Below are positions 6,440 through 42,084 of a stretch of DNA of 42,602 nucleotides, piece by piece (the first letter of the stretch is position 1; the number at the start of each line of letters is the position of its first letter). This DNA comes from Muribaculaceae bacterium (lineage in GTDB: Bacteria; Bacteroidota; Bacteroidia; Bacteroidales; Muribaculaceae), in the NCBI GenBank assembly GCA_017621225.1, contig JAGATN010000024.1, positions 1 to 42,602 of the forward strand, written 5' to 3'. The translations under genes and the position numbers were made by a program. The notes beneath the pieces are model-generated. The model was not told the DNA's origin. It saw nothing but the letters and a program-made list of their open reading frames with translations, and did no database searches.

Positions 6440-6473
6440 AGCTGTTTAACTGTTTATTTTCATACTTACCTAA

Positions 6474-6634
6474 GAAACTGTTTAAATTTATTTGTCGAAA
6501 GAATTGAGAGGATTTGTCAAGTAGATTTTTGATATTTATGAAGGAGTTATGGGGTGCCATAATGACTGAATAAATATCAACAAGATGCTGACAAAGACCT
6601 CAATGACAAGACAAAATAAATTTTAAACAGTTTC
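6474..6634. mobile_element. MITE-like element, copy 1 (161 bp)
   Basis: The ends are inverted repeats: GAAACTGTTTAAATTTATTTGTC on the left, and on the right the complement of GAAACTGTTTAAAATTTATTTTGTC, differing by two indels. The element is flanked by the direct repeat TAA (6471-6473 and 6635-6637). There is no coding capacity. The centre holds GGAG, a 6-bp hairpin TTATGG-GGTG-CCATAA (6547-6562) and TGACTGAA, enclosed by a second inverted pair GATATTTAT / ATAAATATC. The second half is clearly related to the element at 41703. It lies between lrgA and the flavodiiron gene. Confidence 0.8.
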
Positions 6635-6757
6635 TAAACATTTGATGCAAAACCGACGTTCTATCAAGAAAGTAGATATGAGCATCACTTTTTCAGGGCA
6701 CAAATGTAATCAATTTAAACCAACTAAAGTTTCATTTGCGATGTTTTTTTCCCATCG

Positions 6758-14318: not shown

Positions 14319-14335
14319 ATCAAGTATGTTACTTA

Positions 14336-14673
14336 GAGGTTGTTTAAAAACAAATGTGAAAGCCGGAGTCCATTCTCTTGAGGTGGATTTCGGGATGAAT
14401 CGAAGGAGCAATGCCGTGGCATTGTGACTGAAATTCAGCACGAAAGGCATCCAAGAGAATGGATGCGACAAAGCATTTTTTTATAAACTCGACAAATAGA
14501 TTTTTAATGAATATAAATATTAAAAAAAGTTACCATAGGCCGAATGGATGCCTTTTTGGCTACCCCGTCCCTAATCTTCAGTCACAATGCCACAGCATTG
14601 CTCTTTCAGACTATGAACAGGTTAGCTCAAAAATACATCCACTCAGGCTTCACATTCGTTTTTAAACAACCTC
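14336..14673. mobile_element. MITE-like element, copy 2: back-to-back double unit (338 bp)
   Basis: The ends are near-perfect inverted repeats: GAGGTTGTTTAAAAACAAAT on the left, and on the right its complement with one changed base. TTA is duplicated on both sides (14333-14335 and 14674-14676). Each half carries its own hairpin core. On the plus strand at 14404-14430: GGAG, stem CAATGCC/GGCATTG, TGACTGAA. On the minus strand near 14578-14604: GAG, stem CAATGC/GCATTG, TGACTGAA. Both halves also share AGGCATCC. The middle is AT-rich spacer. The element fills most of the gap between trmB and gapA and has no credible coding frame. Confidence 0.8.
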
Positions 14674-14730
14674 TTAATGCAAAATATCAACTTTTGCAAA
14701 TAATTTTGAGCAGTATATCAAAATTATTAG

Positions 14731-41538: not shown

Positions 41539-41702
41539 GAATTTTGAAAACAGGCCGTCCGGCACATTTTTCCGACGAGCAATCAGGCAACGCCAAAAAA
41601 CAGCATTAACAGCTGATTATCAATCACTTACCCCTATTTTAAGCCGCTGAGAATCAAAAAATTGAGCGGCAATCGAATAATCACACTGATTTTTCAGCCT
41701 AA

Positions 41703-41864
41703 GAGTGTGTTCAGATTTGGCTTATGTTAAGATTTAGAGAGAATTTCAGAGTATGTTTGGTGATTGAGTGAGGGAGTTATGGGGTGCCATAACGACTGAA
41801 TGAAATCGACAAACAGACCTGAAAGGCCTCTAAAGATTTCACAAAGTTAAATGTAAACATACTC
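41703..41864. mobile_element. MITE-like element, copy 3 (162 bp)
   Basis: The left end GAGTGTGTTCAGATTTGGCTT and the complement of the right end (GAGTATGTTTACATTTAACTT) match in 15 of 21 positions. TAA is directly repeated on both sides (41700-41702 and 41865-41867). The centre holds GGAG, the hairpin TTATGG-GGTG-CCATAA (41777-41792) and CGACTGAAT, identical to copy 1 over this core except for one base. Length is within one base of copy 1. It lies upstream of ybeY, 165 bases beyond its promoter. Confidence 0.78.
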
Positions 41865-42084
41865 TAAAACTAATCAAAAAACCAACCCCCATGCACCCAA
41901 CCGAAAAAATTGCAATGCATCGGGGAAAAAGATATCATACAAACCTCGACAGGCCCAAACCTGAAAAACGCAACGTCTACACTCCCCTACCCTCTTTCTT
42001 AAGTCCACACCTTTTACATCCCAAGCATGGCAGCAGGCGCTATGCCGAGAATGAGACATATCGAACGAGCGACATTCGGCTCAG
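41865..42084. other. Non-coding stretch between the miniature element and the antitoxin remnant
   Basis: I see no credible reading frame or RNA here. It could contain decayed remains of the rest of the truncated antitoxin gene, but no similarity is visible. Confidence 0.5.

Follow-up and report, generated by a model that had tools for sequence, protein, structure and literature searches.

A covarying, strand-specific hairpin in miniature transposons of Bacteroidota and in a subclade of IS5-family elements

Results

Three MITEs and a hairpin-free insertion sequence lie in the window

The window, by which we mean the whole 42,602-nucleotide stretch of Muribaculaceae DNA that was analyzed, contains three elements that have terminal inverted repeats (TIRs), lack a transposase gene and are under about 600 bp, as expected of MITEs. 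MITE A (161 bp; 6474-6634, + strand; row L030) has the TIRs GAAACTGTTTAAA...TTTAAACAGTTTC, with 0 and 0 mismatches, carries one hairpin and is flanked by identical TAA target duplications (6471-6473 and 6635-6637). Its left neighbor is lrgA, on the - strand. MITE B (162 bp; 41703-41864, + strand) also lies between identical TAA flanks (41700-41702 and 41865-41867); its left TIR has 4 mismatches to the B consensus end and its right TIR has 1. MITE C (338 bp; 14336-14673, assigned to neither strand) has the TIR GAGGTTGTTTAAAAAC, a TTA/TTA duplication (14333-14335 and 14674-14676) and two hairpins that face inward.

The + strand of the window contains three matches to the pattern GGAG-N10..24-GACTGAA (at 6543, 14405 and 41773) compared to 0.20 expected, and 0/100 shuffles of the window reached three matches. 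These are the three cores that an earlier note on this DNA had described, and we confirmed the stems as it gave them. The core of A (6540-6570, + strand) reads GAAGGAG-TTATGG-GGTG-CCATAA-TGACTGAA, that of B (41770-41800, + strand) GAGGGAG-TTATGG-GGTG-CCATAA-CGACTGAA and the left core of C (14402-14432, + strand) GAAGGAG-CAATGC-CGTG-GCATTG-TGACTGAA. A fourth, inverted core, the right one of C (14577-14607, - strand), reads GAAAGAG-CAATGC-TGTG-GCATTG-TGACTGAA, such that TTATGG/CCATAA forms the stem in two cores and CAATGC/GCATTG in two. The earlier note overlooked that these cores are the tips of MITEs, in which the hairpin extends outward by a further 50 nt or so on either side. In alignment A4 and model R2, the hairpin domains span 6506-6605 (+) in A, 41736-41835 (+) in B and, in C, 14368-14467 (+) on the left and 14542-14641 (-, inverted) on the right. 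Model R1 also scores the window cores, with E-values that are circular because the window copies sat in its training set.

The window also contains an IS5-family insertion sequence (IS) of about 891 bp (1596-2486, - strand) with the TIR GAGAGTGTTTGAATTTAAA and the flanks TAA and TTA. Its region (1591-2491) has 24-nt perfect inverted ends and the domains DUF4096 and DDE_Tnp_1. It carries no hairpin, and its locus (L175) contains no match to R2. The ends of this IS are similar to those of the window MITEs, not equal to them. It might supply the transposase for B-like ends. A second PF01609 place in this genome, on C45, contains internal stops.

The hairpin tip is a tandem G.A motif and its arms covary

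When folded as RNA, A, B and the two halves of C had z scores of -9.4, -7.2, -6.0 and -7.95, and in each case 0/200 shuffles folded as well. Two of eight stretches, both from other genomes, folded weakly (L069:300-440, z -2.0; L076:310-449, z -1.8), and both truncate the 5' arm. In most folds, the tip consists of an apical stem, a 2x2 loop, two pairs and a second 2x2 loop. As each of these loops is GA facing GA, GGAG and GACTGAA form the opposing halves of one motif, UGAAGGAG/YGACUGAA, with the pairing order U-A, G.A, A.G, A-U, G-C, G.A, A.G, G-Y. The hairpin spans the element, and its tip thus holds two tandem G.A/A.G steps with two ordinary pairs between them. The earlier note had taken GGAG and GACTGAA to be kept flanks; they are kept, but as partners in this motif rather than as separate tags, and its suggestion that GGAG could be a ribosome site found no support in our analysis. 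The apical stem is variable in sequence and mostly 6-7 bp. Many hairpins have a bulged purine some 22 nt farther from the tip, followed by 3 bp and then an A.G or GA/GA mismatch. At the bulge (column 15 in 50 rows), A was found in 27 rows, G in 15, T in 6 and C in 2.

The central proposal of the earlier note, that selection acts on the fold of an RNA or DNA hairpin and not on its sequence, is supported by the pairing. Across 89 distinct cores, which derive from 111 R1 matches in 82 sources, the stem letters vary while the seven stem pairs form in 98.6% of cells (slid controls, 20-53%), and six of the seven changed on both sides. Among 13 hand-picked cores, 97.8% of cells were paired, again with 6/7 pairs changed on both sides. 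On some measures, neither set was separated from its shuffles, which equaled the 13 cores in further pair types in 351/500 cases and in both-side changes in 11/500, and the 89 cores in 59/500 and 9/500, respectively. In a 10-pair set, with three pairs added between and outside the G.A steps, 96.5% of cells were paired (slid, 25-45%) and eight pairs changed on both sides, a number equaled in 38/500 shuffles. The inner variable pair (n=88) was A-U in 59 cores, G-C in 18, G.U in 6 and other in 5. At its basal pair, the tip most often had G.U (57/89), a state found in 4/534 cells over the six remaining apical-stem pairs.

The full hairpin separates clearly from its controls. In A4 (50 rows, 34 pairs), 84.6% of cells were paired, compared to 40-43% when slid; 32 pairs changed on both sides, and 0/500 shuffles were as high on any of five measures. 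The four G.A positions held G.A in 47, 50, 50 and 50 of the 50 rows. These rows, 97-100 nt long and nearly gapless, were picked from 157 overlapping R1 rows and comprise 45 of 48 arm clusters together with window B (replacing L001), both halves of C, L190 and the second L178 hairpin; clusters L151 and L069:213 are left out. The unpaired stems and freely varying flanks that the earlier note had named as evidence against its proposal were absent from our matches, which had been gathered with the core or its models. Since the rows were gathered in this way, the invariance of GAAGGAG and GACTGAA is partly a product of how they were selected.

One strand is selected, reading inward from the transposon end

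To count mismatches, we aligned the two arms beyond the core under a scoring scheme that treated all mismatch types alike. Across 132 elements grouped into 48 clusters, G.A outnumbered T.C by 242 to 14 and G.T outnumbered A.C by 116 to 42; A.A occurred 47 times and T.T 18 times, and G.G 40 times and C.C twice. The 10 clusters (21 elements) from records not labeled Muribaculaceae gave G.A 41 and T.C 2, G.T 33 and A.C 12, A.A 16 and T.T 5, and G.G 9 and C.C 1. If the constraint acted on duplex DNA, the two counts in each comparison would be equal; the inequality indicates that one strand is selected.

Where neighboring hairpins are separated by less than 700 nt, they face inward at 36 places and outward at two, and stand in tandem at two. 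The 36 inward places are 39 pairs minus the repeats (L265 = L076, L277 = L210 and L195 = L133) and include L124. The selected strand therefore reads 5' to 3' from the transposon end inward.

The genome of the window carries many recent copies

The genome to which the window belongs (2.53 Mb, 94% complete) contains 34 matches to the core pattern, compared to four for a reversed control pattern. These correspond to 30 hairpin places, as L004, L025 and L026 are without a hairpin and L028 and L029 are one place. Scoring with R1 gave at least 45 copies. Among 35 A and B copies, a set that leaves out four rows of C or D type and six matches without both ends, 31 are 161-163 bp long and 27 have identical 3-bp flanks (17/22 for A and 10/13 for B), which are TNA in 26 of the 27. 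Six contigs of this genome stop within A-type elements (L010, L012, L015, L018, L224 and L225); the repeat thus breaks the assembly, and the copy numbers are underestimates. At L007:1265-1600, an A-type and a B-type element adjoin in the same orientation, so that this tandem pair consists of two separate elements.

All 39 rows from this genome fall outside called ORFs of at least 80 aa. Of these rows (37 distinct elements), 13 are antisense with respect to the flanking ORFs, 11 sense, nine divergent and six convergent. We thus saw no orientation preference toward flanking ORFs among these rows, using a crude ORF caller that misread at least window element A.

A subclade of IS5-family elements carries the hairpin

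Of the 149 genomes in the family of the window genome, 36 contain PF13340. When 30 PF13340 loci were examined, the hairpin lay inside the IS in nine (L183, L185, L186, L188, L190, L193, L194, L195 and L201) and at both IS ends in five (L185, L186, L193, L195 and L201). The hairpin-bearing type consists of DUF4096 and a DDE transposase between TIRs, with the hairpin within. At L176 and L178, the matches fall outside the IS, those at L178 in neighboring MITEs. The two ends of L186, which has a TTA duplication, carry hairpins with differing stems. L190 keeps a 279-aa transposase frame with the hairpin upstream; some 85 nt separate the end of the hairpin from the first start codon found, which leaves the ribosome site uncovered. 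The right end of L190 (2241-2284) is without a hairpin, while the adjacent end sequences remain, as if it had been cleanly deleted.

In a transposase tree of 25 rows that includes three fragments (two of them hairpin-bearing) and carries a long-branch warning, the seven hairpin-bearing frames of at least 100 aa fell on one side of one branch (88/98). This held in 87% of bootstrap trees, and 0/500 label shuffles were as low.

Hairpin-free IS elements with A-, B- and C-like ends also occur in other genomes (L174, L173 and L187/L191/L196, respectively), and their ends are closer to those of A, B and C than are the ends of the window IS. These relatives have also multiplied, as the L174 type is present in several near-identical copies in genome G130. 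At L178:1222-2421, a hairpin MITE, a hairpin-free IS and another hairpin MITE stand in a row with TTA between them. A hairpin MITE and the adjoining hairpin-free IS at this locus share their first 13 bases, and insertion may favor the TNA left by an earlier insertion.

The hairpin occurs with other ends and is patchy outside Muribaculaceae

Elements of D type (L008, L028, L138 and L205-L208) are 182-191 bp long, with AGTAAGTCG-like ends that are flanked by TA on each side in 7/7 cases. Another four elements have GAACTGATTTAAAC- or GAAGTGATTTAAAC-like ends, two of them with ANT duplications (L149 and L221). We considered IS630 as a partner for the D type and rejected it, since PF13358 (DDE_3) gave no match in 10 genomes. 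One 2.7-Mb genome, G063, contains 87 D-type end matches (46 + 41) with up to three mismatches, a large burst of the TA-flanked MITE.

Within the family of the window genome, the hairpin is present in 75/149 genomes and 18/30 genera, and most matches in named records are in Muribaculaceae or unplaced Bacteroidales bins. A sample of the order gave 4/393 genomes, one of them (G485) outside the family, and a sample of the phylum gave 3/395, one of them weak and another, G403, from a different family with at least 10 copies. The G403 element was found by R2, and its core differs. Among 80 loci listed for the strict core pattern in GTDB genomes are Phaeodactylibacter xiamenensis (class Saprospiria), a Chitinophagales MAG, Prevotellaceae and horse-gut MAGs. 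Outside Muribaculaceae, the element is thus patchy across Bacteroidota, as seen with models whose training rows came from the family, with a single addition (L145, in R2), and which may overlook more divergent versions. Most of 25 elements examined from the GTDB scan are 154-172 bp long; 15/25 have a 3-bp duplication at their best ends, two of these at ends that give lengths of 239 and 501 bp. A- or B-like MITEs were also found in MAG contigs labeled Paenibacillus and Lachnoclostridium (L274, L308 and L319), for which the labels or the binning may be wrong. The single match in viral contigs is probably in a bacterial contig (compare the Paramuribaculum record L263).

The hairpin matches no named family

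Scans of Rfam (4227 families) at E up to 5 for four loci or up to 1 for 10 loci gave no family for the hairpin; the only matches were to a tRNA next to L008 and, at L186, to a miRNA model with a score well below its cut-off. No such element is described in the open literature that we searched, in which the core letters were sought only as GGAG. The earlier note was thus right, within these 14 loci and that literature, to know of no named family. We also looked for an intrinsic terminator (a GC stem and T run) in A and found none at 6440-6700. L190 has two terminator-like sites compared to 1.1 expected; one (1297-1282) is the apical stem on the opposite strand and the other (2281) is outside the hairpin.

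Discussion

The cores in the window are the tips of a long hairpin that is carried by MITEs of Bacteroidota, mainly those of gut species, and by one IS5-family subclade. MITEs and structured IS ends are already known; a covarying, strand-specific module shared by MITEs with different ends is not described in the literature that we searched. IS10, IS50 and IS200 provide examples of control of impinging transcription. RNA control of a transposase gene is reported for the ISPpu9 5' UTR in the portion of PMC8450116 available to us. These cases resemble ours in having structured RNA at or near IS ends, but here, as far as those accounts extend, the structure is also in gene-less MITEs, at both ends and in several transposon groups.

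As described in the accessible parts of the papers on BrickBuilt of Porphyromonas gingivalis (PMC4596501) and MITECca01 of Cardinium (PMC9769881, which sets it against ISCca4 of the IS982 group) and of a review (PMC10969869), bacterial MITEs are, like ours, short, non-coding, multicopy and mostly intergenic, with TIRs, a target duplication and a transcript that folds into a stem-loop. They differ, to the extent those parts show, in that here a covarying, strand-specific hairpin is common to MITE families with different ends. The subterminal hairpins of IS200/IS605 elements, in the sections of PMC6006769 we could draw on, are likewise strand-specific structures near the ends; our elements differ from them in having TIRs, target duplications, DDE-transposase relatives and paired hairpins that are mutually inverted.

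The explanation that we favor joins three parts, namely that RNA is the acting form, that a host factor reads it and that persistence benefits. We offer the three together tentatively, at somewhat below an even chance. Transcripts from neighboring genes would run into the element and fold into the hairpin, and a host factor (an RNA-binding protein, a nuclease or a ribosomal protein) would read the tandem G.A helix. As a result, impinging transcription into the element might be limited, or the inserted transcript might be made stable and harmless, and any small transposon carrying the hairpin would be helped to persist. An RNA form is favored because G.U is tolerated in the arms and is commonest at the base of the apical stem; a purely RNA reading is weakened because the rest of that stem is almost without G.U. 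The explanation as a whole is weakened by the lack of a gene-orientation trend (with crude ORF calls), the lack of a terminator in A, the position of the L190 hairpin away from the ribosome site and the multiplication of hairpin-free relatives. That a host factor reads the hairpin, as the earlier note had suggested, is possible.

Single-stranded DNA, extruded during replication or transposition and recruiting a host replication or repair factor, could instead be the acting form. Though we consider this less likely, it is a serious rival, because at each end of the transposon the strand that carries the hairpin is also the one with the 5' terminus. It would fit two-hairpin elements, which use the same chemical strand at either end, as well as the near absence of G.T from most of the apical stem, the absence of an orientation preference among the 39 rows and the fact that tandem G.A is stable in DNA too. 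It fits poorly with arms in which G.T is 2.8 times as frequent as A.C, with a core pair whose commonest state is G.T and with a genome in which we found no single-strand (Y1) transposase. A host-side function, in which copies have been turned into small RNAs or mRNA processing sites, would agree with the very stable folds and with the position of all 39 rows outside called ORFs of at least 80 aa, but the lack of an orientation trend and the recent copies with clean target duplications make it rather improbable.

The remaining rivals explain the hairpin through transposition or descent. Because it is found with TNA-, ANT- and TA-flanked ends, the hairpin is probably not a site that a single transposase recognizes. 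Its presence in the IS5-family subclade, at both ends in 5/30 loci, could mean that it is part of transposase recognition as an internal enhancer site. We find this quite improbable, since it is also carried by MITEs whose ends are TA-flanked, ANT-flanked or like those of hairpin-free IS elements, and reading of duplex DNA would not yield strand-specific mismatches. That the elements are passive palindromes, self-complementary MITEs with a core merely shared by descent, would account for the TIRs and common architecture; it is very improbable given strand-specific mismatches and changes on both sides at nearly all pairs of A4 (32/34). Scarcely credible is a REP element moved by a RAYT (Y1) transposase. 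According to what was available of PMC2817692, PMC3733652 and PMC6006769, REPs and REPINs share with our elements a tetranucleotide adjoining a hairpin, many intergenic copies and inverted doublets. However, the tetranucleotide here is GGAG, compared to the GTAG or GTGG of REPs (PMC6006769, in part), and our elements are 160-340 bp long, with TIRs and target duplications and no linked Y1 transposase in the loci tested. Y1_Tnp (PF01797) has no match in the genome of the window; it is present in 87/149 family genomes, while G000 and G016 are without it yet carry cores, and 30 Y1 loci from those 87 genomes gave no R1 match at E up to 1.

Beyond the RNA-based explanation that we favor stands a broader proposal, which we regard as about evenly balanced between right and wrong: that the hairpin is a portable, transposase-independent structured module on unrelated small DNA transposons across Bacteroidota, in which the ends change while the folded strand is kept, and that it acts by way of a host factor recognizing the tandem G.A helix. 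If so, it would be a hitch-hiker on hitch-hikers. MITEs are usually viewed as decayed transposons with a meaningless middle. Here, the best-conserved part lies in the middle and it is the ends that vary, in several families belonging to a phylum prominent in the gut. Such a conserved middle points to a host factor that recognizes the tandem G.A helix, for which our analysis provides a ready covariance model and the exact bases to mutate. Should the hairpin tame read-through RNA, it would show how non-autonomous elements stay tolerable to their host.
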